Of a DNA stretch of 52,855 nt, positions 16,988 through 43,173 are shown piece by piece. The notes under the pieces are model-generated. The model was not told where the DNA came from. It searched no databases and saw only the letters and a program-made list of their open reading frames with translations. The DNA lies in the IMG/VR virus record IMGVR_UViG_3300044995_000307, positions 1 to 52,855 of that record; one strand, given 5' to 3'. Position 1 is the first letter of the stretch. Each line of letters starts with the position of its first letter. Position numbers and translations under genes: made by a program. Source of the DNA: a virus.

Positions 16988-18853
16988 CTAAGGAACTAAA
17001 AATGATTCTGGCTCTAACATCTTGTTTTGCTCTGTTATAGACATATAATTATAATCAATATGATACTCAATATAATAATTTTTGTATTCAGAATCTCTAC
17101 CTTTCATATTTTTTAAATAATATTTTTTATTAAGCTTCATTTGAGGAGTTTGAATTATCCCGATTACTGAATCTAATCTATGAATAATACCACTAGATTC
17201 TCCAAGATGTCTTAACGTTAAATCATCTGCTCCATAACCATCAATTTTTATTTGATGAGCAGTAAGAGTTGCCCATTTATGTTCTATCCCAGCAGCATAC
17301 AAATCATTAACATTTACTTTATGATGTTGGTAGCTATTTTCAAATGCTAAAAATCCATGATTATTAGCCATTTCAGTTAAATAATCTATTACAAGTACAT
17401 GTATTTTTTTACCTAAATATTGCTCTAAATTCAAAACCCAATTAGTTACACTTTCTGGTGTTGCTACAGAAAACCTTTTAGTCCATAATTCTCCTATAGG
17501 TGAAAAACCATCAACAAAATCCATTGTTGATGAAGAATACTTTTCTATGTGTCTTTTTATAATTTCTGACATTCTAACAGTATCATTAGACAAATTGACA
17601 TATTCATTAATTGGTATATTAAAAGCATTTGCACCTATTCTTTTATATAGCTTTTCAACTGACATTTCAACACTGGCTAAAGCAACATTACATCCATTCA
17701 TCCATAAATTTTTAGCAAATTGACCTAGCCATATAGAATTGTGACTTAATATATCATTTGTATAATAACTATGATCTTCTGAATCAATTTGTAAATCAAA
17801 CATGTTTTCAAATATATCTGTTTGATAAATTGTAATAGTCTCTATTCCATCTTTTGTAATAATTTCATTTCCACTAATTAAATCGCTAACTGGTTTTAAA
17901 CCATTTGGAGTGAATATTAAATGTTCATCAGCACATTTTAATACTTTTCCTAAAGAAGTGTTTAGTATGTAAACGTTATATTCTATTGTTTTACCGATTG
18001 CTTTAATTTTAACCCACCGATCATTACTGGTTAATACTTCATAGTTCTCTGGTTCTATTGTTTGCAAAAATTTTCCCTTAACATTTTCTTTTACTAAAGA
18101 ATAAGTAGTTAAATAATTAAAAAATTTACCAATGTAAATCTTTTCAATTTTTTTACTTAATGTATGTCTTATTGTGATATGAGTGTCATAACACACACAT
18201 TTACCAATATTACTTTCTCCAACTAATAAAGTGAACTCTCCAGGAGTTAATCCACCATTGGGATTGCCACTGACCCATGTATTAAATAATGGAAATCCTG
18301 TATTGTATAATTCAGAAGGTGGTATTTGTCTATGAGCATCTGGGTCTAATATGCTTTTACCTAAGTCAGTATCAATTGATATAGAACTTCTTCTATTAAA
18401 AATTTCTCTAGATTTTTTTATTATATCGAAAACATTATCTGGAGTAATTTCTTGTTTTCTTTCCCATTCTAATGCTAATTTATGACCTTTTTGATGATTT
18501 TGCCAAGCAATCCAAGCAGGTATTGCTTTTTTCATATAATCTTCAGAAAACTGACTTAGATCAGTTTCTAATATTTGCTTAGCATTTATTAAAAATAACC
18601 TAATATTTTCTTCTTTTGATAATTCTTTATCAATAATAATATTAGATTGATCGTCTTCTATTATTATTTTTATTTGATCTAAAGATGGGTTTTTTAAATT
18701 AAAAGGAATTTCATTAAATTCATTATAAAATTTTTTTGTAACCTTATACAATGCATTTACAAATTTATTCTTAAAAAAATCTTCATCTACTACAGCAAAT
18801 AATTTGTTTTTACAGACATATAGGTAAGATACATTCTCAAAAGTTAAATTCAT
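16988..18853 (-). CDS. Replicative DNA helicase (DnaB/gp41-like) with P-loop intein
   Basis: The 621-residue precursor is a hexameric RecA-fold replicative helicase interrupted by an intein. The Walker A loop reads GESNIGK (212-218), is broken by a 154-residue intein (219-372), and resumes with Ser373, restoring GESNIGKS. The spliced helicase would be 467 residues, close to T4 gp41 (475). Further helicase features: ALASVEMS (motif 1a-like) just after the intein, VLVIDYL (Walker B), TAHQIK and MKGRDSEYK (arginine-finger region). It is last in the operon uvsX, 77-residue gene, helicase, with 3 bases from the preceding stop. Activity of the host cell's replication by this enzyme depends on splicing, since the unspliced P-loop is broken. 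Confidence 0.9.
   Translation of the reverse strand: MNLTFENVSYLYVCKNKLFAVVDEDFFKNKFVNALYKVTKKFYNEFNEIPFNLKNPSLDQIKIIIEDDQSNIIIDKELSKEENIRLFLINAKQILETDLSQFSEDYMKKAIPAWIAWQNHQKGHKLALEWERKQEITPDNVFDIIKKSREIFNRRSSISIDTDLGKSILDPDAHRQIPPSELYNTGFPLFNTWVSGNPNGGLTPGEFTLLVGESNIGKCVCYDTHITIRHTLSKKIEKIYIGKFFNYLTTYSLVKENVKGKFLQTIEPENYEVLTSNDRWVKIKAIGKTIEYNVYILNTSLGKVLKCADEHLIFTPNGLKPVSDLISGNEIITKDGIETITIYQTDIFENMFDLQIDSEDHSYYTNDILSHNSIWLGQFAKNLWMNGCNVALASVEMSVEKLYKRIGANAFNIPINEYVNLSNDTVRMSEIIKRHIEKYSSSTMDFVDGFSPIGELWTKRFSVATPESVTNWVLNLEQYLGKKIHVLVIDYLTEMANNHGFLAFENSYQHHKVNVNDLYAAGIEHKWATLTAHQIKIDGYGADDLTLRHLGESSGIIHRLDSVIGIIQTPQMKLNKKYYLKNMKGRDSEYKNYYIEYHIDYNYMSITEQNKMLEPESFLVP
17738..18199 (-). mobile_element. 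Mini-intein, 154 aa, in the helicase Walker A motif
   Basis: Block A starts at Cys219 (C-x-x-x-D-T, CVCYDT). Block B is KCADEHLIFT (306-315), keeping the essential His311 but with Ala at the usual Thr position. Block F/G ends MFDLQIDSEDHSYYTN...ILSHN, with penultimate His371 and terminal Asn372 and the +1 nucleophile Ser373 in the extein. All residues needed for class 1 protein splicing are present. No LAGLIDADG or HNH endonuclease domain fits in 154 residues, so it cannot home by itself. Confidence 0.9.
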
Positions 18854-23432: not shown

Positions 23433-23926
23433 TTTTTGCAGTTATGTATCACTTTTAAAAGATATTCTTTAAAACCACTTTTTTTAGTAATACTTTCATA
23501 AAATACCATTACACTTAAACCTAATGATTTCAAATAATTTATTTTTAATCTATCTTTTTCTCTGATTATGTTTGTATCAATAATCCTATTTTTAATTTTT
23601 ATAAATCTTTCATTAAAAAAAGTAGGATTTACATGAATAACGTCTCCAAAAATTTCTATAATAAGATTTTTATCAGGAAAGAAAAAATCTGCTGAATATT
23701 TGCCAAATCTTTTATTATGTATAAATTTTACATTATTGTTTGATAAAAAGTTAATTAGCTCTAATTCTTGATTACTAATAGAATGTGACTTTTTCTTATT
23801 ACAAAAAATACATGTTTCTTCATTATTTTTAACTCTTTTATTGTATAAACGCTTTGTTATATAATAATGCCTATTACATTTTTCATCGAAGCAATAGTAA
23901 TAGCTACCATATTCTTCTATTACCAT
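23429..23926 (-). CDS. Small stand-alone VSR-like endonuclease, 165 aa
   Basis: The protein has a zinc-binding start (CFDEKC, then CIFCNKKK) and a VSR-like nuclease core: KYSADFFFPDKNLIIEIFGD (~90-110), a His-containing VIHVNP, and an REKDRLKINYLKSLGLSVMVFYE segment (~135-155), i.e. the D/E, E and K-rich helix order of very-short-patch-repair and homing nucleases. It lacks the DNA-binding repeats and C-terminal domain of the larger paralogs. The ATG lies inside the last codons of the polymerase fragment (ATATGGTAA), so it is translationally coupled to it and sits directly at the polymerase 3' end. Confidence 0.72.
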   Translation of the reverse strand: MVIEEYGSYYYCFDEKCNRHYYITKRLYNKRVKNNEETCIFCNKKKSHSISNQELELINFLSNNNVKFIHNKRFGKYSADFFFPDKNLIIEIFGDVIHVNPTFFNERFIKIKNRIIDTNIIREKDRLKINYLKSLGLSVMVFYESITKKSGFKEYLLKVIHNCKK

Positions 23927-25185
23927 ATTCCACCAAACAATAATATTTCAGCGTTTATTTTAGGTATACCTAATACACTTAGTATATTATTCATTGGATT
24001 TAAAAATACAGCCTCAAATTGTGCTTCATAATTTATTGGCATAGCTATTTCTGCTGGAAAGAATCCTGGAAAGAATCCAAAAACATGTCCATTTTGTGAA
24101 TGATAGTATTGTATTTTGTTACCGCTTTTTATAAATGGGTATTTGCTTTTATAGTTACTATTATATAATAAGTAATTGTAAACAGCAGCTGCTCTAACAT
24201 GCTCTGGACAACCAGATACTAATTTCAATTCTGTAGTATCTGATATAACATACTTGTTATAGTTATTAACTTTCTTAAAAAACGATATGTTTGATATATT
24301 ATTAGTAGTTGTAAATTGATCTTTAATTTCTTTTAGTAATTTAACTAACTTATCAGTATTCATTTCAATACCACTATCCATAATAAATTCTATTGTTCTT
24401 TTCATTTGTTCTCTTACATATTTAGGAGTAGATTTTTTATTTATATCTATGCCTTTGAAAGATAATGATTTTAACCTGTCATTAATTATCTTTCCACTCC
24501 ACATGGAATTTTTTATGTACATTTTTTTTGCTACCCACAAAATAGAATAATTGATTTGTTCTAAAGCTAATTTAAAAGAAGGTTTTCCGTTAGGTCTTTT
24601 AGTAAAAGCACCATACTTTTCACAAAATTTATCTAACATTATAGAATAATAATTGATTAAGCCATAGTGATAAACTTTTAATATGAACTCAAGCTTTACA
24701 TAATCTGGATTATTGTAATTTGGTATTACTTTATAAACCTTTGCTATAGTTTCATCATATGAAGGAGTGTACGTTACATTTTTATAAATTTTATCGAATA
24801 CTACCATTATAGAGTCAGTATCTGCATAATGCACAGTGTCAAAATTATGATAAGCTGGTACTGTACACCCAATCTTAGCTAGTAAAGCTTTGTCTTTAGG
24901 AAATAATTCTTTGAAATAGTAGTTAGTTATGTTTATAGTATATTTTATTAATGATCTTGACTGGGTAGTAACAGACTCTGCTACTCTTCTTTCATATAAT
25001 ATAAATTTTTTAAAACCTAATACGCCATATATTGAATTGAGAATTATTTTCTTTGATTTGTTACCATTATCTCTTATTATTCTTAGTTTCTTTAATCTAT
25101 TAATTTCTGAAAGAATTTCTTCTTTTGAGTATTTTTTACCTTGCTCTAATTTAGAATGATGAAGTTTTTCTTGTACTAAAATCAT
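23920..25185 (-). CDS. T4-type DNA polymerase, C-terminal half only
   Basis: The 421-residue protein matches the second half of a gp43-type family B polymerase: motif B KIILNSIYGVLG (46-57), motif C HYADTDSIMV (119-128), AKKMYIKN and the STPKYVREQMKR segment equivalent to the T4 palm-thumb region, GCPEHVRAAAVYN, and a C-terminal tail ending FGGIW. The exonuclease domain and motif A (DxxSLYP) are missing: the frame has a stop five codons before the ATG. The opposite-strand endonuclease gene at 25213 fills the space up to gp46. The missing half is not elsewhere in this window. Probably a split polymerase whose other subunit lies outside. Confidence 0.85.
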   Translation of the reverse strand: MILVQEKLHHSKLEQGKKYSKEEILSEINRLKKLRIIRDNGNKSKKIILNSIYGVLGFKKFILYERRVAESVTTQSRSLIKYTINITNYYFKELFPKDKALLAKIGCTVPAYHNFDTVHYADTDSIMVVFDKIYKNVTYTPSYDETIAKVYKVIPNYNNPDYVKLEFILKVYHYGLINYYSIMLDKFCEKYGAFTKRPNGKPSFKLALEQINYSILWVAKKMYIKNSMWSGKIINDRLKSLSFKGIDINKKSTPKYVREQMKRTIEFIMDSGIEMNTDKLVKLLKEIKDQFTTTNNISNISFFKKVNNYNKYVISDTTELKLVSGCPEHVRAAAVYNYLLYNSNYKSKYPFIKSGNKIQYYHSQNGHVFGFFPGFFPAEIAMPINYEAQFEAVFLNPMNNILSVLGIPKINAEILLFGGIW

Positions 25186-25212: not shown

Positions 25213-26847
25213 ATGAATGAAATTACTAGCCTACACAATGAATTAAAAAAATCGACAGAACATATACTTAGACCACAAGTTTTAAGTATGCTTATAAAAA
25301 ATAATGATAAATTGCTTTCCATATTAATGCAATTGACAAAATTTTTAGATAATGAAAAAAACGTTAGTTTCAAAAGAAGATTATGGCACTTTCAAAATAA
25401 TTGTTATGAAAAAGTTTTATGTAAAGAATGTGGTATCAATTATGCTAATTGGTCAGAAAGTAAAGGTTACACATCTTGTTCAAAAAAGTGTACAGAAAAT
25501 AAAAAGAAAAAAATATTCTTAGAAAAATATGGCGTAGATAACCCTAATAAATCACATTTAATTAAAGCTAAAATAGAAGAAACTAATAAAAAGAAATATG
25601 GCAGTAAAACAGTTTTTGGAACTAAACATTTTAAAGATATATTGGGTGTTGATAACCCAATGAAAAGCGACATTATTAAAGAAAAAAGAAAATTAGCTAT
25701 ACTTCAAAAATATGGAGTAGATCATACGTCAAGGACTACTGAAGTAAAAAACAAAATAAAAACATATTTAGAAAATAATAAAAAAGATATTGCTGTAAAA
25801 GTAAAAAAATCTCTAAAGGAAAAATATGGCGTTGATAATCCAATGAAGAGTGATATTATAAAAAATTTAATAAAAGACAAATTTATAAAAAATCATAAGT
25901 TAGATGGATTCACCTTAATTAATATAAATAACGGTAAATTTGAATTTAATTGTCACACATGCAATAATGACTTTGTTATAGATAAAACTACCTATTATAA
26001 TAGAATAAAAAATAACATTAGCATATGTCCAGAGTGTTTTCCTTTAAATAATAAATGGAGTAATTTAGAAAATGAATTACTTAAATTTATTGAAGAAAAT
26101 TATGATGGTGTTATTATTAAAAATGATAGAGAAGTTATAAAACCAGAAGAAATAGACATTTTGTTACCAGAATTAAAAATAGGAATAGAGTTTAATGGCT
26201 TGTACTGGCACAGTAGTATTAACAAAGAAGTTAATTATCATAAAGAAAAAGAATTAGCATGTAGAAAAAAAGGAATCCAATTAATACAAATCTGGGAAGA
26301 TGACTGGATTTATAAAAAAGAAATGATAAAAGGAATACTACTCAACAAATTCAATAAAAGTAAAAAAATATTTGCTAGAAAAACTACATTAAAATTAATT
26401 AACTATAAAGAGTTTAGTAAATTTATAAATGAAAACCATTTGCAAGGAAGTATTCCAGCAAATTTATATTATGGATTGTATAGTGACAATTATTTAGTAT
26501 GTGCTATGAGTTTTAGAAAAGAAAAAGAAATATGGGAAATATCTAGACTAGCTACAAAAATAGGCTATTCAGTAATAGGTGGAGTTAGCAAAATATTAAA
26601 ATCATTTGAAAAATTAGCAAAACCAAAAACTTTAATTTCTTATTGTTGCAAAGATTACTTTAATGGCAACACTTATTTAAACGTTGGTATGAAACTAGTT
26701 AAAGAAACAAAGCCAAGTTTATTTTTTGTTAATAAAAAATTCGATAAGAGAATTAATAGAAGAAGATTACAAAAATCAGACCAATCAGAATATTATAAAG
26801 TTTATAACTCTGGCAATTTGTTGTTCATTAAAGAATACTATTCTTAG
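25213..26847 (+). CDS. VSR-like (EDxHD-type) homing endonuclease, intact
   Basis: The 544-residue paralog of the gene at 20658 has a zinc finger (CKECGINY, CSKKC), DNA-binding repeats EKYGVDNPMKSDIIK (~110-220), a second Cys cluster (CHTC, CPEC), the nuclease core EIDILLPELKIGIEFNGLYWH with YHKEKE and LIQIWEDDW (~310-375), and the C-terminal domain (ENHLQG, YYGLYS, WEISRLATK, VIGGVSKIL, YFNGNTYLNVGM). It lies in reverse orientation between the polymerase C-terminal fragment and gp46; its stop overlaps the gp46 stop by 4 bases. The position suggests its insertion caused or accompanied the polymerase split. Confidence 0.83.
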   Translation: MNEITSLHNELKKSTEHILRPQVLSMLIKNNDKLLSILMQLTKFLDNEKNVSFKRRLWHFQNNCYEKVLCKECGINYANWSESKGYTSCSKKCTENKKKKIFLEKYGVDNPNKSHLIKAKIEETNKKKYGSKTVFGTKHFKDILGVDNPMKSDIIKEKRKLAILQKYGVDHTSRTTEVKNKIKTYLENNKKDIAVKVKKSLKEKYGVDNPMKSDIIKNLIKDKFIKNHKLDGFTLININNGKFEFNCHTCNNDFVIDKTTYYNRIKNNISICPECFPLNNKWSNLENELLKFIEENYDGVIIKNDREVIKPEEIDILLPELKIGIEFNGLYWHSSINKEVNYHKEKELACRKKGIQLIQIWEDDWIYKKEMIKGILLNKFNKSKKIFARKTTLKLINYKEFSKFINENHLQGSIPANLYYGLYSDNYLVCAMSFRKEKEIWEISRLATKIGYSVIGGVSKILKSFEKLAKPKTLISYCCKDYFNGNTYLNVGMKLVKETKPSLFFVNKKFDKRINRRRLQKSDQSEYYKVYNSGNLLFIKEYYS

Positions 26848-32192: not shown

Positions 32193-32702
32193 TTATAGTA
32201 TTTCGTTAATATCAGTGTTACTAGAAATTTTGTCTAAATCATCAAATTTTTCTTTTGGTCTAGGCTGATATATTACATTTCTGCCTTTAGGATATCTTTC
32301 ATTAAGTTTTAATACATTATATTTTATAATATCCATTAAAGTAAAATTAAATAATTTTAATAATACCATATAATACCACAATAAATCTCCCATTTCTGAT
32401 TTTAACTTGCTTTTATCAAGCTTTTTACCATGATAAATTGATTTTCTTATTAAAGAAGTAATTTCTCCAGACTCTTCGTTAATTCCCATTATCACAGAAG
32501 ATAGCTGATCTGAACGATTTTCTATAATAGATTCATTGAATCCTCTTATGCAATACTCTGAATATTTGTTAATATAGTCATTATGACTTCTTGTAATATA
32601 ATTGTTGGTTGGAAAAACTATTTTAAAGAAAAATATTTTAAAAACTTTATACTCTCTTAAAAGAGAATGATCTTTTTTATCTAATAATTCATATAGTCTC
32701 AT
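32193..32702 (-). CDS. MazG-like nucleotide pyrophosphohydrolase (candidate MazZ)
   Basis: The 169-residue enzyme has the all-alpha NTP pyrophosphohydrolase metal site: EESGE (76-80) and EMGD (103-106), i.e. ExxE-x22-ExxD, with helix YHGKKLDKSKLKSE between. MazG family enzymes split (d)NTP to (d)NMP and pyrophosphate. In phages with 2-aminoadenine DNA the member MazZ makes dGMP from dGTP for PurZ; the PurZ-like gene at 41725 makes that role plausible here, but sequence alone cannot fix substrate choice. First gene of the gp47/gp46 operon; TGAAAC lies 29 bases upstream, with TATAAT nearer the ATG. Confidence 0.82.
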   Translation of the reverse strand: MRLYELLDKKDHSLLREYKVFKIFFFKIVFPTNNYITRSHNDYINKYSEYCIRGFNESIIENRSDQLSSVIMGINEESGEITSLIRKSIYHGKKLDKSKLKSEMGDLLWYYMVLLKLFNFTLMDIIKYNVLKLNERYPKGRNVIYQPRPKEKFDDLDKISSNTDINEIL

Positions 32703-34120: not shown

Positions 34121-34818
34121 TGAGAGTGTTTAATTTTTTTTCATTTAGGAATATAAAAAAGAATGAAAAAGGCGATCTTGAATTTACAAAGCCGTTAATA
34201 GAAAATTTCAAAAACGTTACTAAAGAACAATCTTCCTTCATCATTACTAAAGAATTAGAAATGAGACCAGATCTAATATCCAACTTAGTAACAGAAGAAA
34301 ATGAAGATTTTTCTGATATGATATTAAAACAAAATGGATTAGGTTGCTTTACAGAAATAAGAGAAAATATGATTATTGAGATTCCAAATGTAAATTCTGT
34401 ATTAGCACAAATTAAAAAAACCAACCAAAAACAAGAAAATCAATCCAAAAAAGAGCTTAATAAAAAATTACCAATAAAAGATAAACAAAGATTATTAGAA
34501 ATAATAGAAATTAATGAAATAAGAACACCAAACATGGTTGCTGAAGGCTCTTCACCAATAGAGGTTAGCAATGGTGTTATTGAGTTAGGGACTGATGTTG
34601 TTTCTAAAAAATGTAAACAAGATTTAACTAAATCTCAATTAATTTCAGAACAGATAAAGAAAGCTATTAAAGATAAAATAAAAAACCAAAACGATCAAAC
34701 AACTAATTTTGAAGAAATATCAAATGCTTCAAAAAGAGTAGAAGCAACTTTATTTTTTAACAATAAGCAAGCAGAAAAAAATAATATTAGCAACTTTAAA
34801 TTAAACCAATCTTTTTAG
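34120..34818 (+). CDS. Possible baseplate wedge protein (gp53/LysM-like)
   Basis: The N-terminal third has the pattern seen in phage baseplate gp53-type proteins and LysM-like domains: an initial basic strand, ELEMRPDLIS, then FSDMILKQNGLGCFTEI, then GMIIEIPN-type ending (here ENMIIEIPN), around residues 45-90. The rest (residues 100-232) is Lys/Gln/Asn-rich and poorly structured. It converges with the purB gene, overlapping its stop by 23 bases with no hairpin between. Assigned by pattern only. Confidence 0.42.
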   Translation: MRVFNFFSFRNIKKNEKGDLEFTKPLIENFKNVTKEQSSFIITKELEMRPDLISNLVTEENEDFSDMILKQNGLGCFTEIRENMIIEIPNVNSVLAQIKKTNQKQENQSKKELNKKLPIKDKQRLLEIIEINEIRTPNMVAEGSSPIEVSNGVIELGTDVVSKKCKQDLTKSQLISEQIKKAIKDKIKNQNDQTTNFEEISNASKRVEATLFFNNKQAEKNNISNFKLNQSF

Positions 34819-36127
34819 CTAAACTCAATCTAATAGATTCTTTTAATTTTAAATCTGATATTATACTATACATTTTTTCTTTATTAAAAGAATCATTATT
34901 TCTAAATATTTCTTTAGTTAATTCATAAGAATTATCTACTCCTTTTATTTTTAAATAAAGTTGAATGAATTCTGAATAAACTTGATAATTGTTATCTAGT
35001 TTTTTTGAATCTTTGTTTACGTAAAGTTCTCTAATACCACTAGAAATATTTTGTATAGCTAAAGATAAATGTGCATAAGGAACTGCTATATTTCTCATGA
35101 TAGTGCTATCACTAAGATCTCTTTGTAATCTAGAAATTTCTAATTCATTTATAAATACATCAAATAAAGCCTTAGAAATTTTTAAATTACCTTCTGCATT
35201 TTCAAATTTTATAGGATTTACTTTATGAGACATAGTACTACTTCCAACTTGCTCTTTATCAACTGCAATTAAAAAATCACCATTATGTATGGAAATCCAA
35301 ATATTTTTACACATGTCTTCAAGTATTATAGCAATTCTTTTGAATTTTTCCATATTATCTCTAATAGAAGAGTAATAATCTATTTGTGAAGTTAACTCAT
35401 AGCTACTATATCTTTCAAAATTGTTTCTGAAATTTGTATTTTCCCTAACGTATCGATTAACAAATGATAAAAAGAAATAATTCCAATCAAATTTAGAATC
35501 TATTAATTTCAAACTAAAGAGATTATTAACAGCACCACCAAATTTTATTTTACCATTTTTTAATTGATCAATTTGATTTTTAATTCTTTCTTTGTAAGTA
35601 GAGAAATATTCATTTACAGTAATTGGTATTGCTATTTTACCATGTGTATATGAAGGTAATTTTGCATTTAAATCAATTGAAGAAAAAGAACTTTCCATAA
35701 CAAAAAGCTCTTTTATTATGTTATTGTTTAATTCTATAGCACAAATATTGTAATAAAGTATGTTTAAATCTTGACTTGTTAAACCAAAATGTAAAAATCT
35801 TGCAAAATTTTGTAAGTTATATTGAGATAATATGTAACTTGCAGTATATTCAATACTTTTTATTTCATGTTTTGTAACAGATTCTTGTTTCTTAAAAAAA
35901 TCTATAATTTTATCTTTTTCTTCTTTATTATTGCGAATATTTTCTTTTATTAAAGAAAATGCTGCTTTTTCGTCTTTAGTTAATTCCTTTTTTAAGTAAT
36001 TTAATAAGAAATGTTCTAAATAACAAATTTCAATATTAATGTATGTTAGTATTTTTTTATCTTCACTGATAATATTATTAATATTTGCTAACTTATCAGA
36101 GTATCTAGAATCTAATGGACTTATCAT
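34796..36127 (-). CDS. purB: Adenylosuccinate lyase (PurB-like)
   Basis: The 443-residue enzyme belongs to the fumarase/aspartase superfamily and is close in pattern to E. coli PurB: SPLDSRYSDKL (3-13), KHEIKSIEY, FLHFGLTSQDLN, THGKIAIP (equivalent of THGQPATP with the general acid His), FGGAVNN, and the signature loop GSSTMSHKVNPIKFEN with the catalytic Ser. PurB removes fumarate from adenylosuccinate and SAICAR; in Z-DNA phages the same reaction turns N6-succino-2-amino-dAMP into dZMP, normally by the host enzyme. THGQ to THGK and TMPHK to TMSHK are small departures. Its presence with a PurZ-like gene (41725) suggests a phage-owned pathway. Confidence 0.9.
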   Translation of the reverse strand: MISPLDSRYSDKLANINNIISEDKKILTYINIEICYLEHFLLNYLKKELTKDEKAAFSLIKENIRNNKEEKDKIIDFFKKQESVTKHEIKSIEYTASYILSQYNLQNFARFLHFGLTSQDLNILYYNICAIELNNNIIKELFVMESSFSSIDLNAKLPSYTHGKIAIPITVNEYFSTYKERIKNQIDQLKNGKIKFGGAVNNLFSLKLIDSKFDWNYFFLSFVNRYVRENTNFRNNFERYSSYELTSQIDYYSSIRDNMEKFKRIAIILEDMCKNIWISIHNGDFLIAVDKEQVGSSTMSHKVNPIKFENAEGNLKISKALFDVFINELEISRLQRDLSDSTIMRNIAVPYAHLSLAIQNISSGIRELYVNKDSKKLDNNYQVYSEFIQLYLKIKGVDNSYELTKEIFRNNDSFNKEKMYSIISDLKLKESIRLSLAKKIGLI

Positions 36128-36558: not shown

Positions 36559-36808
36559 AATCTTTTTTTATTATATAGTTATTTGTTACAATTTGTGATT
36601 TAGAAGAATCTAATAAAATTTTTATTGAATCTAATTTTAAAAAATCTTTTTTTAAATCTTTAATTTGATTTTCTATATTAGATGTATCTACTGGTTTATA
36701 GCTTTTTTTAATATCATTAAGATAATAAAATAAACCAGCTAAGCATAATATTAATAAAATTATTATTAATACTATTTTATAGTCCACTTGGCTCTCCGAT
36801 TTTTCCAT
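36458..36808 (-). CDS. Inner-membrane spanin-like protein
   Basis: The 116-residue protein has one N-terminal membrane helix (YKIVLIIILLILCLAGLFYYL, ~10-30) and a long charged coiled-coil-like periplasmic part, the layout of an i-spanin. The next gene, which has a signal peptide, starts inside it out of frame (101-base overlap). Its start overlaps the large baseplate gene by 32 bases. Together with the lysozyme (16296) these would complete outer-membrane disruption. Assigned by architecture only. Confidence 0.5.
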   Translation of the reverse strand: MEKSESQVDYKIVLIIILLILCLAGLFYYLNDIKKSYKPVDTSNIENQIKDLKKDFLKLDSIKILLDSSKSQIVTNNYIIKKDYENKIQILSNNSLDESILFLSRAIAQEDSIRKR

Positions 36809-38681
36809 ACGGGTTATTTGGTTTATTAGTACTTGTTCCTATATTTCTGTTATTGAAAATTAATTCACAATTATCTATAACGTCTGCAACACTAGGTTTC
36901 GGTAATATTCTACAAGAATTTATTACATGCTGATATTCAAAGTCTAAGCATCTATTGAAAAATCTTATATTTGAAATATTTAAATTAGATCCCAACAAGT
37001 AAGGGCTACCATTATTGATATCTATGTTTAGAAAATTAGAAGTTTCTTCTATTTTATCATGCAGCAGTAAACTTGTTGAATTAGTATTATCATCTAATAA
37101 ATTCCATATGTATGTTCCAAAATACTTAAATTGATTATTAATATTAAAATTAATACAATACCACTTATTTAAATCTAAAGGAGTTATATTAAAATGTCTT
37201 TGATTAATGCCATACATTAATAAGATTTTATCTTCCAATAAAAATAAGGATAACTGCTTTTCTCCATTTATATTAAACAAATTAAATGAATCAACTAAAG
37301 TTAATTGAGATTGCTCTTGAGTAGATAATAATCTTGGAAGTTCTATTATAAATTTATTGTTAACTATGCCTCTTATTTGATAATACTTATTACCAATTTG
37401 TAATATTTTATATTCCTTATAAATTGATGTTTTACTAATATCAAATTCTAATTCCAATAAGTCATTGCTAATACTTTGAGATATAAAATTGATATTAATA
37501 TTATCTAATTTTTTAGTTAATCGTATCCAAGAAGCATAGCCAAATGATTTATCTTTGTTAATATTAATTTTTGCTTTATAAGACAAAGCTACGTTAAATT
37601 TACTTATAAAAGAAAAGTTATACATGTTCTTTATTAATTCAGAGCCATTATTACGAATATCTACAAACGATATCGTATTATTGCTATCAACATATTCTCT
37701 AACATTATCATCAGATAAAGTTTTATTAGAATTTTGATTGTCATCTACAATATCTTGTATATCTTCTTTTTCCTCTTTTGAATATATCTTATCTAAATTT
37801 AAAGTAAAATCTTCTAAAAATTTAATTGTATCATCAGATTTTTCTACAGATTTATCATCTTCAAATTCATCTAAATAAAGCACATAAGAAAGTGCTGATT
37901 GGTTAGTACCTTTTTTAAGATAATTGCTACTAACATAGTACATCTTATTTTCTATTGGGAAATATAAAAAATCGCCATTAGTTGGTTTTTCATTTAGTCC
38001 AAATATTGATTCAAAATAATTTTTATCAACCTCTACTTCAAAATTCTCAAATTCATAACCCCATTCAGTTATTTCTGGTTTATTTTCTGGAAACTGGTCT
38101 TCTTGTAAAAATAAATTAATACATTTATATTCTTCTTCTTTATAATGAGTATAAGTTCTTAAAGATGAATTAACCCCGCTAGGTAATGGTTTTATATGCC
38201 AATAATTTGCTTTAACTCCTCTATTAGAGTTTAACCAAAAATTTAATTTTTTATCAATATTAGCAGCAAATTCACCTATTTCTAAAAAATCGAAAGTTTT
38301 AAATTCAGAATATTCATTTAAATCAGGATCTATATTTTGTGGATATGTTTTTTCTTCAAATTCTATTAATAATCTATAAGATTTGATTGTAACAGGCTGT
38401 AAAATAGAATTAGAAGACATAAAAAATTTAAAACCAATATAAAATGGCTGTTGCTCTGGAACTGGTACTTTATCATCCACTATAGACCAAAGACTCCAGT
38501 TTTTATTATCAAAACTTGTAGAATAATACACCACTATAGAGTGATTATTAGTATAATTTTCAAATTCATGGCTGAAACTTATACTAATTACATCTTTAAA
38601 ATTATCTGGTATTTTATGTATGAATAAGCTGCCTTGATTTTTTAAAATATGATTTACTTTATAGACAAATTCTTTCATCAT
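36777..38681 (-). CDS. Large tail/baseplate protein with LamG-like C-terminal region
   Basis: This ~634-residue virion protein is beta-rich throughout. The N-terminal part has strands typical of baseplate or adhesion proteins (SIVVYYSTSFDNKNWSLWS); an acidic linker follows near residues 270-330 (many Asp/Glu/Asn); the C-terminal ~250 residues look like a LamG/concanavalin-type domain (ASWIRLTKKL, KWYCINFNINN, ISNIRFFNRCLD). The ATG at 38681 is used rather than the TTG one codon upstream. It reads opposite to the membrane genes starting at 38711, with 29 bases between starts. Confidence 0.55.
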   Translation of the reverse strand: MMKEFVYKVNHILKNQGSLFIHKIPDNFKDVISISFSHEFENYTNNHSIVVYYSTSFDNKNWSLWSIVDDKVPVPEQQPFYIGFKFFMSSNSILQPVTIKSYRLLIEFEEKTYPQNIDPDLNEYSEFKTFDFLEIGEFAANIDKKLNFWLNSNRGVKANYWHIKPLPSGVNSSLRTYTHYKEEEYKCINLFLQEDQFPENKPEITEWGYEFENFEVEVDKNYFESIFGLNEKPTNGDFLYFPIENKMYYVSSNYLKKGTNQSALSYVLYLDEFEDDKSVEKSDDTIKFLEDFTLNLDKIYSKEEKEDIQDIVDDNQNSNKTLSDDNVREYVDSNNTISFVDIRNNGSELIKNMYNFSFISKFNVALSYKAKININKDKSFGYASWIRLTKKLDNININFISQSISNDLLELEFDISKTSIYKEYKILQIGNKYYQIRGIVNNKFIIELPRLLSTQEQSQLTLVDSFNLFNINGEKQLSLFLLEDKILLMYGINQRHFNITPLDLNKWYCINFNINNQFKYFGTYIWNLLDDNTNSTSLLLHDKIEETSNFLNIDINNGSPYLLGSNLNISNIRFFNRCLDFEYQHVINSCRILPKPSVADVIDNCELIFNNRNIGTSTNKPNNPYGKIGEPSGL

Positions 38682-38710
38682 CAAATATGTATCATTAAAG
38701 TATATAAAAC

Positions 38711-39193
38711 ATGTATAAAATAAAATTAATATCTTTATTTAAAGAGATAAGATTTCAACTAGAAATTAGAGAAATTTTTAAAGAAATAGTATTAAATGCT
38801 ACAATACAAGAAAAGTACTCTATTAAAGATGAAGAAGGTGAAGAAAATGGAGTTAACCTATCAAAAATGAACGTATTATACGTTTGGATACCAATACCAG
38901 ATAGATTAGAACCACAGCAACATGAATCTTTTATAAGTAATTATTTACAATTGCTTAGCGATATAATGATGCAAAGTGATTTAATAGGTCTACTTAAAAC
39001 TGATGCTTTGGCATTTAAAAATGAAGACAGTTATTATTTTTTAATAAAATATTATAGACCATTTCCTCTTAAAGTATTATTCTATTCATTAATAGAATTA
39101 AGTATACTTTCATTATTATTTTCTTATTTTATAAAAAAATCAGATATAATTTTCAATATTTTAAAAACATTAATTAATCATTTATTTCTATGA
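38711..39193 (+). CDS. Hypothetical protein with C-terminal membrane helix, 160 aa
   Basis: A soluble N-terminal region (residues 1-120, helical then mixed) is followed by one strongly hydrophobic segment (VLFYSLIELSILSLLFSYFI, ~123-143) and a short tail. Function unknown. Its end overlaps the next membrane protein gene by 4 bases, so the two are coupled and may act together in the envelope. Confidence 0.58.
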   Translation: MYKIKLISLFKEIRFQLEIREIFKEIVLNATIQEKYSIKDEEGEENGVNLSKMNVLYVWIPIPDRLEPQQHESFISNYLQLLSDIMMQSDLIGLLKTDALAFKNEDSYYFLIKYYRPFPLKVLFYSLIELSILSLLFSYFIKKSDIIFNILKTLINHLFL

Positions 39194-40793: not shown

Positions 40794-41072
40794 ATGACTC
40801 TAGAACAATTAGAAAAAGAAGTTGCGACCGAAACTGGTCTAACTATCAAAGATTCGAAAGCTGCAATCACAGCTATTTCTAAAGCTTTATTAAAAGACTT
40901 AAAGAAAGGTAATTCTACTAGAATTCCTTCTTTGGGAACATTTTCAGTAAAACAGCATAAAGCTAGAACTGGAAAAAACCCAAGAACTCAAGAACCAATT
41001 CAAATTCCTGCTAAAAAAGTTATTGCTTTTAAGGCAGCTAAAGTGGTTCGTGAGGCTATTAACAAAAAATAG
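40794..41072 (+). CDS. HU/IHF-family DNA-binding protein
   Basis: The 92-residue protein has the DNABII fold: two helices (TLEQLEKEVATETGL, SKAAITAISKALLKDL), strand LGTFSVK, and the DNA-binding arm signature GKNPRTQEPIQIPAKKV followed by AFKAAK. It bends or compacts DNA, perhaps packaging or shaping the phage genome. It has its own TTGAAAC-type upstream element and is followed by the only canonical-looking terminator of the window. Confidence 0.93.
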   Translation: MTLEQLEKEVATETGLTIKDSKAAITAISKALLKDLKKGNSTRIPSLGTFSVKQHKARTGKNPRTQEPIQIPAKKVIAFKAAKVVREAINKK

Positions 41073-41724: not shown

Positions 41725-43173
41725 TTAATTATCAAATATAACTTTTGAATCTACAAATTCAGAAGTACCTAATCCGAAAAGATAAACGTTATTATATTTT
41801 TCCATTACTGGCTTAACAAATTGATCTAACCATCGATAACATTTTTGTGATACAAAATCAGTAACCCCTTCCATGTCTGGATCAATCCAATTCATAAAAT
41901 TCATATGAATGTATATTTTATGAATAGTTTGGTTATACTTTATTGCTTCATCAAGATTTATACTAGAGTATGTTGCAACCCTTCTAGGTAATTTAGTAAG
42001 ACTAGTTAATATTGCAGATTCTTTAATAATTATTCCATTTTCTTCTTGTAAGGCTTCCCAAGTAATTTCTTTAGAATCTGGGAAAAAATCTCCGCTGTAT
42101 GAGTCAACTTTATTATAAGGTATTGATGGATATCTGTCTATTAATGGTTTAGTAAGATGTATGTTAGGCCTGCTAGTTACATAGATAAACTTATCTCTAA
42201 TTATTATTTCAAAATAATCGGGCGGATATTCATTAGCAATAGGTTTTATTAATTGTGCTATTTTTTCACTAATAGAGTCAGAATCTTCTGGTAGATTTTC
42301 TCCAAAATGATTCTTATATAACTCTTCAATAGAATAAGAATTTATTGACTCTGATTTGCTAATTAATTTATAAGAAGCTATTCTAATAGGATAAGTTCTA
42401 TCATTAAGGAATACGTTACCAACAACAGATGGTGGTAAAAATCCATCATTTAAAGCAGAACTAACTGTAACATTTCTGCTAGTGGTATAAGGAGCAAATC
42501 TCCAATAATTATTACTTAATGGAAATCCTTGCCCAATAGAGTATAAACCACTTTTACCTTTACTTAATAAGTCTAAAATTTCCTCTTCTACTACACATAC
42601 CATATCCGATATTTCTTTAATATCTTTAGCAGTAACTAAAGTTTTATTTCTAACAGCTTTTTTAGCAAGAACAGCACCACTACCAGAAGCAGTAGTACCA
42701 GTTTTTATAGTTCCATCTCTAAGATCTTCTTCGCTATAATAATTACCATCTAGATCACATAAACCTTTTTCAAAATCTATATCAATTTTTTGAATAACAG
42801 CTGCTCTACTAGAAATTCTTACTTTTGATCTTGGAATACCACAAAATTCTATTTCTTTAAATAAAGATTCTAGTTCAAAACTTGCTCCAGAAGTAATGAA
42901 TATTTTTTCAAGTTTGTCATGGTACAATGAACCGCTAGGTAAAGCTTTAAAAACTATTTCTACTTTTTCTCCATTAGAATTTGTGTCTGTTACCGTATGA
43001 GAAGCATTTGCAGAATTACTAGTCAAAATAAATGAATAATCAGTATTTTTAACTAAAAAAGCTTCTAAAGAGCCTTTACCAGAGCTACCTTGTGCAGCAT
43101 CTAAAAGAAAATTTATTTTACCAGGAATTATGGTATTATTAAGTTTGTTTGAGTAATTAAATTTGTTTTTCAT
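41725..43173 (-). CDS. purZ: PurZ-like synthetase (adenylosuccinate synthetase family)
   Basis: The 482-residue enzyme is of the PurA fold: P-loop AAQGSSGKGS (26-35), switch NASHTV with His59 (E. coli His41), GTTASGSG (159-166), GQG (214-216), YTTSRNVT (219-226). Two diagnostic changes: Ser30 replaces the catalytic Asp13 of E. coli PurA (G-D-E-G-K-G becomes G-S-S-G-K-G), and the guanine-specificity motif TKLD reads TKLP (393-396). As I recall, PurZ enzymes of S-2L and phiVC8 also lack that Asp and use ATP/dATP instead of GTP, joining Asp to dGMP to give N6-succino-2-amino-dAMP. Assignment to PurZ over PurA is therefore well supported but inferred. A TGAAAC element lies ~105 bases upstream; a hairpin follows. 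Confidence 0.78.
   Translation of the reverse strand: MKNKFNYSNKLNNTIIPGKINFLLDAAQGSSGKGSLEAFLVKNTDYSFILTSNSANASHTVTDTNSNGEKVEIVFKALPSGSLYHDKLEKIFITSGASFELESLFKEIEFCGIPRSKVRISSRAAVIQKIDIDFEKGLCDLDGNYYSEEDLRDGTIKTGTTASGSGAVLAKKAVRNKTLVTAKDIKEISDMVCVVEEEILDLLSKGKSGLYSIGQGFPLSNNYWRFAPYTTSRNVTVSSALNDGFLPPSVVGNVFLNDRTYPIRIASYKLISKSESINSYSIEELYKNHFGENLPEDSDSISEKIAQLIKPIANEYPPDYFEIIIRDKFIYVTSRPNIHLTKPLIDRYPSIPYNKVDSYSGDFFPDSKEITWEALQEENGIIIKESAILTSLTKLPRRVATYSSINLDEAIKYNQTIHKIYIHMNFMNWIDPDMEGVTDFVSQKCYRWLDQFVKPVMEKYNNVYLFGLGTSEFVDSKVIFDN

Follow-up and report, generated by a model that had tools for sequence, protein, structure and literature searches.

A gene for a protein of the adenylosuccinate synthetase superfamily raises the question of whether a large phage could equip itself to replace A in its DNA with Z (2-aminoadenine). 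The gene lies in the window, by which we mean the entire stretch of DNA analyzed, a 52,855-base IMG/VR record with a G+C content of 25%. A T4-like myovirus gene set is present, including a tail sheath, a UvsX-like recombinase, a piece of a family B polymerase, and a weakly matched DnaB-like helicase, and the window derives from a large virus of Flavobacterium-type bacteria. Because the record looks like a fragment, genes absent from it carry little weight. We computed the family and clade of the synthetase, its active-site residues and predicted fold, its pairing with a PurB gene, and the gene order of the locus (Table 1).

Table 1. Features of the window, with positions numbered from its first base
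Feature	Position	Strand	Basis or remark
MazG-type nucleotide pyrophosphohydrolase	32193..32702	-	possible dGMP supplier
Adenylosuccinate lyase, PurB-type	34796..36127	-	TSQD, THG, and GSSTM-K-NP catalytic motifs; predicted N6-succino-2-amino-dAMP -> dZMP
Family F4 gene, between PurB and PurZ	36777..38684	-	locus comparison; conserved synteny
Family F5 gene	38711..39193	+	locus comparison; conserved synteny
HU-like DNA-binding protein	40794..41072	+	neighbor of the synthetase gene in 5/5 subclade A loci compared
PurZ-type synthetase, 482 aa	41725..43173	-	predicted dGMP + Asp + ATP/dATP -> N6-succino-2-amino-dAMP
P-loop, G29-S30-S31-G32-K33-G34	43072..43089	-	alignment; Ser30 in place of PurA catalytic Asp13
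Extra segment, residues 268-355	42109..42372	-	alignment and model; replaces short PurZ loop after sugar-side Val/Ile
Aspartate-loop motif, T393-K-L-P-R-R398	41980..41997	-	alignment; S-2L PurZ TKLPRR, E. coli PurA TGRRRR
N425-F-M-N428	41890..41901	-	alignment; Asn428 column is PurA guanine-binding Asp333, S-2L PurZ Gln308
Family B DNA polymerase, C-terminal half (motifs B and C)	23920..25185	-	sequence
Homing-endonuclease-like ORF	25213..26847	+
ORF with polymerase-like motif pair, 286 aa	10280..11140	-
DnaB-like helicase	16988..18853	-

Family and active site of the synthetase

The synthetase frame is uninterrupted, and its product belongs to the superfamily by both homology and fold. It scores 44.5 bits against PF00709, where the cut-off is 27, and matches PHROG 1211, annotated as "2-aminooxy adenylosuccinate synthetase", at 2.5e-26. 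Among proteins in the PDB, sequence search returned phiVC8 PurZ at 4.6e-22, far beyond chance, with S-2L PurZ (1.3e-16) and Pyrococcus PurA (1.3e-14) behind it. An AlphaFold model (pLDDT 87.9, pTM 0.85) submitted to Foldseek found phiVC8 PurZ with dGMP/ATP as its best match (E 1.7e-22) and then Pyrococcus PurA. Judging from the model, PurZ and PurA are not told apart by fold alone.

The original prediction drew attention to a GSSGKG P-loop in which Ser30 stands for the catalytic Asp13 of PurA, and our alignment agrees, placing Ser30 in the column of E. coli Asp13. All 13 members of the clade described below have Ser there. Arg303 of PurA is replaced by Leu, and Arg305 is retained together with the catalytic His, T129, R143, and Q224.

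A further claim, that the guanine-binding TKLD of PurA had become TKLP (393-396) with loss of the guanine contact, fared less evenly. The TKLP letters are present, but they are not homologous to TKLD, and the reading was a misalignment. Residues T393-K-L-P396 instead form the aspartate loop, as they do in S-2L PurZ, with SLTKLPRR in the window protein aligned to TVTKLPRR in S-2L PurZ and ATTGRRRR in E. coli PurA. The Asp of PurA TKLD (D333 in E. coli, and Asp in Natronorubrum and Phocaeicola as well) aligns with Asn428, as in PurZ, and thus the guanine contact is still predicted to be lost, though at another residue. In this column PurZ proteins have Gln or Asn, whereas both PurA and the PurZ0 of Wayne have Asp. 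Asp13, Arg303, and Asp333, the marks of a PurA, therefore read Ser, Leu, and Asn in the window synthetase.

Three substrate-contacting positions of S-2L PurZ, S23, T273, and Q308, are found only in PurZ (PMC8342488). Their counterparts in the window synthetase are S, T, and N, with Asn428 as in phiVC8. Other features are peculiar to the clade. Beside the catalytic His, the NAGH motif of PurZ appears as NASH, NAAH, or QAGH. Residues 268-355 are modeled as a small alpha/beta insert, longest in the window protein, at the position of the PurZ-specific loop that pulls the sugar-side Val nearer to C2' (PMC8342488). Read from sequence, these variants and the long insert beside the sugar site could mean that the substrates are altered.

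A clade of large phages beside PurZ

When 50,697 phage records were searched with tblastn, the only full-length relative was from Flavobacterium phage MaF61, at 42% identity; the PurZ phages came next, at about 27-30%. Two alignment-based scans of IMG/VR viral contigs, with queries of two and six rows, added eleven distinct clade members whose contigs measure 11 to 320 kb, whereas a scan of viral contigs with a single protein recovered no relatives. The clade alignment had no match in bacterial and archaeal genomes. A scan of such genomes with a PurZ alignment yielded relatives with GSTGKG and GSEGKG, which served as controls in the trees. A PurZ-like protein with GSEGKG is encoded alongside an ordinary PurA on bacterial chromosomes of Paenibacillus, Heliobacterium, Granulicella, and others (L064, L065, L068, L070, L071, and others).

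Two trees of 57 and 59 rows were built from PurA, PurZ0, PurZ, and the archaeal and bacterial GSEGKG relatives, with phage PurA added in the second. The 13 proteins from large phages, including those of the window and the cultured Flavobacterium myovirus MaF61, form one branch (100/100) that joins the GSTGKG PurZ proteins with support of 100/95. In the first tree, a 100/100 branch separates PurA from the window clade plus PurZ. The window protein also lies outside the PurZ0 branch and has GSSGKG rather than GSEAKG. Placement within true PurA clades had been named in advance as grounds for abandoning the PurZ assignment, and neither tree places it there, with the caveat that forcing the clade together with PurA costs 18 log units at an AU p of 0.080, which is not significant.

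The grouping with PurZ, the S, T, and N at the PurZ-only contacts, and the presence of phiVC8 and S-2L PurZ among the nearest solved structures bear out the PurZ-type identity first proposed. On this sequence evidence, the window synthetase is very probably a PurZ-type enzyme and not an ordinary PurA. By analogy with the published biochemistry of the phiVC8, S-2L, and SH-Ab PurZ enzymes, it would use dGMP with ATP or dATP and yield N6-succino-2-amino-dAMP (dSMP).

A recent survey (PMC12884076; NAR 2026) describes a PurZ group that comprises two subgroups from phages and four sequences from archaea, in seven phage groups. Term searches of its main text turned up neither Bacteroidota nor myoviruses, PurB, or family B polymerases, and we found no earlier description of the 13-member clade in the open-access literature searched.

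A lyase gene near the synthetase gene

The original prediction did not include a PurB gene located 5.6 kb from the synthetase gene. Its product has the domains PF00206 (Lyase_1, 64 bits) and PF08328 (ASL_C, 90 bits), and both the catalytic His (THG) and the signature-loop Ser (GSSTM..K.NP) are present. This nearby gene is the best contextual evidence for the Z reading. The pair of PurZ and PurB recurs in three further members of subclade A (MaF61, G001, and G002), with catalytic motifs intact on the window, MaF61, and G001, and with the G002 copy cut off. In the other subclade, the lyase of G016 differs in the type of its signature loop (GSSAMAYKRNP), which suggests that it was acquired separately. 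A PurB tree had long branches and did not resolve relationships.

PurB was already known in phages from PhiMa05 (PMC8093824), and it was dropped as a marker specific for PurZ because it accompanies true PurA in other large phages. Six phage contigs of at least 100 kb bear PurB: a true PurA with Asp13 accompanies it on four, the new PurZ on one, and neither synthetase on the remaining one. By these counts, a phage lyase tends to accompany a phage synthetase, which in the window is of the PurZ type. Large phage contigs G033, G034, G038, and G039 (L155-L158) combine PurB with a true PurA that keeps Asp13, and so carry a phage AMP branch. Some PurB records were set aside: an Acinetobacter "phage" is a bacterial chromosome judging by gene content, and Salmonella and Listeria records are unannotated contigs taken as likely contaminants. 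Outside of phages, the conjugative Rhizobium plasmid pRL23b2 (L078) has the gene run folE - PurA-like - purB.

Neighboring genes and nucleotide supply

The order F4, F5, HU, PurZ is largely common to subclade A, and TerL adjoins PurZ in relatives. In G002, the genes for PurB, guanylate kinase, F4, F5, HU, PurZ, and TerL all fall inside 11 kb. Guanylate kinase is encoded on all five other subclade A records (G001, G002, G003, G004, and MaF61). Its value as a marker specific for PurZ is weakened by about 25 phage contigs that carry guanylate kinase without this synthetase. On G013, an adenylate-kinase-like P-loop kinase is encoded directly downstream from the PurZ gene (L024:11242-11838). MazG (PF03819) occurs among the 13 clade records only on the window, MaF61, and G016, with a weaker PHROG MazG match on G001, and this scattered distribution means that there is no consistent MazZ.

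On six contigs of subclade B (L019, L020, L021, L023, L025, and L027), a nucleoside-deoxyribosyltransferase-like gene (PF15891) is located 0.7-3 kb upstream of PurZ. It has one match among 50,697 isolate phage records. The gene belongs to the same superfamily as DmtZ, described as the Z-base transferase of PurZ0 phages (PMC12884076). Identification as DmtZ itself was rejected, as the relationship holds at the superfamily level only and a comparison with Wayne DmtZ gave no direct match in sequence. Could the gene nevertheless be a candidate DmtZ analog?

Polymerase and known Z companions

A family B polymerase is encoded on the window, MaF61, G001, G003, G004, and G013. Searches of four records (the window, MaF61, G001, and G003) found no homolog of DpoZ, and no sequence homologs of the DatZ of S-2L and phiVC8 or of S-2L MazZ. 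MaF61 (ORF97), G001, and G003 encode YfbR-like HD proteins, which are no more than candidates for depletion of dATP; HD proteins of this kind occur in 196 phage records. Incorporation of Z, if real, needs either a family B polymerase that accepts dZTP or another enzyme that depletes dATP.

The polymerase of the window is split, with its N-terminal half not on the contig and the homing-endonuclease-like ORF directly upstream. The 286-aa ORF contains a second polymerase-like motif pair (NMTYG...YADTD), but matches nothing in Pfam or PHROG and lacks a homolog in MaF61, G001, or G003. An apparent mini-intein interrupts the Walker A motif of the helicase (GESNIGK/C...HN/S).

A proposed route to Z and competing explanations

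In the proposed pathway, PurZ would consume ATP or dATP to join dGMP and aspartate into dSMP, from which the phage PurB-type lyase would release dZMP and fumarate. A phage guanylate kinase, as in close relatives, would then form dZDP, a host NDP kinase would presumably form dZTP, and the T4-like family B polymerase would insert dZTP opposite T, wholly or in part. The true substrate of the lyase, the role of the kinase, and the presence of Z in DNA are here modeled on published work with the PurZ enzymes of phiVC8, S-2L, and SH-Ab. We consider it likely that the window phage makes dSMP with a PurZ-type enzyme, converts it to dZMP with its own PurB, and places the resulting dZTP in its DNA wholly or partly. 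That the pathway includes the phage lyase is, by the same analogy, reasonably likely, and the balance leans modestly toward Z in the DNA of this phage, as the original prediction had proposed.

The synthetase might instead be a diverged phage PurA that converts IMP to adenylosuccinate, with the phage PurB boosting AMP and dATP, as phage PurA and PurB pairs presumably do. The pairs on G033, G034, G038, and G039 lend this explanation a precedent, Pyrococcus PurA ranks second among the structural matches, and the AU test of the clade with PurA falls short of significance. Yet those same phage PurA proteins keep the Asp and lie outside the PurZ group, whereas Ser holds this position throughout the window clade, Leu and Asn replace R303 and D333, and the clade is joined to PurZ with support of 100/95. 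We therefore regard a diverged PurA as unlikely.

A PurZ-type enzyme need not serve the genome. S-2L PurZ consumes dATP (PMC8342488), and the window enzyme might be a device for shifting dATP and dGMP pools, or might make a ribo form. The long insert in the sugar-side loop and the failure to find DpoZ or DatZ homologs in these phages fit such a role, but a dedicated PurB and, in relatives, a guanylate kinase suggest that the product is carried on to the triphosphate, and we think this explanation quite improbable. Very improbable, in our estimation, is that this PurZ relative works with another acceptor or amino-acid donor and yields some other 6-substituted 2-aminopurine deoxynucleotide. The NASH, NAAH, and QAGH variants, the Leu of the aspartate loop (SLTK vs. 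TVTK), and the insert could point in that direction. However, the aspartate-loop Thr and Arg305 are retained, and the nearby fumarase-superfamily lyase, with its catalytic motifs intact, fits an aspartate adduct.

To return to the proposed PurZ and PurB route, the genes of the window suggest that this virus family may also build Z into its DNA. The chances appear even that large phages, among them large T4-like myoviruses of Bacteroidota, harbor a third phage PurZ lineage with a dZTP route of its own and Z-DNA copied by a family B polymerase. On that reading, the route would comprise PurZ and PurB, joined by guanylate kinase in one subclade and by the deoxyribosyltransferase-like gene next to PurZ in the other. 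If true, the Z trait widens to a T4-like replisome, a replication system without a prior report of Z-DNA, and a family B polymerase that accepts dZTP is implied. It would also point to a pathway less dependent on the host, one that could be moved into laboratory strains. MaF61 is in culture, which makes the Z question testable at once.

Comparison with known systems

MaF61 (PQ858689), whose host is Flavobacterium sp. B330, provides a close comparison. Its "putative adenosuccinate synthetase" (ORF141) belongs to the same subclade at 42-46% identity, and its genome also carries PurB (lyase ORF149) and has an HU-like gene in the same region, but its annotation is by similarity only. A term search of the MaF61 paper (PMC13269007) turned up nothing on adenosuccinate, aminoadenine, or restriction. 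The phage PurA and PurB pairs of G033, G034, G038, and G039 likewise place a synthetase and an E. coli-type lyase on one phage, but their synthetases keep Asp13 and the TTGR aspartate loop.

The PurZ0 proteins of Arthrobacter phage Wayne, Gordonia phage Ghobes, and kin (PDB 7VF6) share the Ser at Asp13 and the PurZ side of the tree. They differ in their GSEAKG sequence, in the Asp of Wayne at the D333 column, and in forming a branch separate from the window clade.

With the PurZ enzymes of phiVC8 and S-2L (PDB 6FM1/6FKO and 7ODX), the window protein shares the Ser at Asp13, the PurZ-only Thr and Asn/Gln contacts, the fold, and the side of the tree. It is 28-30% identical to them and differs by GSSGKG vs. 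GSTGKG, NASH vs. NAGH, and an insert of ~85 aa. Its context also differs, in that it comes from a large phage that encodes PurB and a family B polymerase but no DpoZ and no recognizable DatZ or MazZ. In published reports, Z-DNA has so far been the property of small siphoviruses and podoviruses with DpoZ or PrimPol, in which the host performs the steps from dSMP to dZTP (PMC8342488, PMC8599892, PMC12884076); enzymes for these later steps are reported not to have been found in Z-phage genomes (PMC8342488). PurZ itself and phage PurB are known, and what is new is an additional PurZ lineage in a new type of phage, with the lyase encoded.
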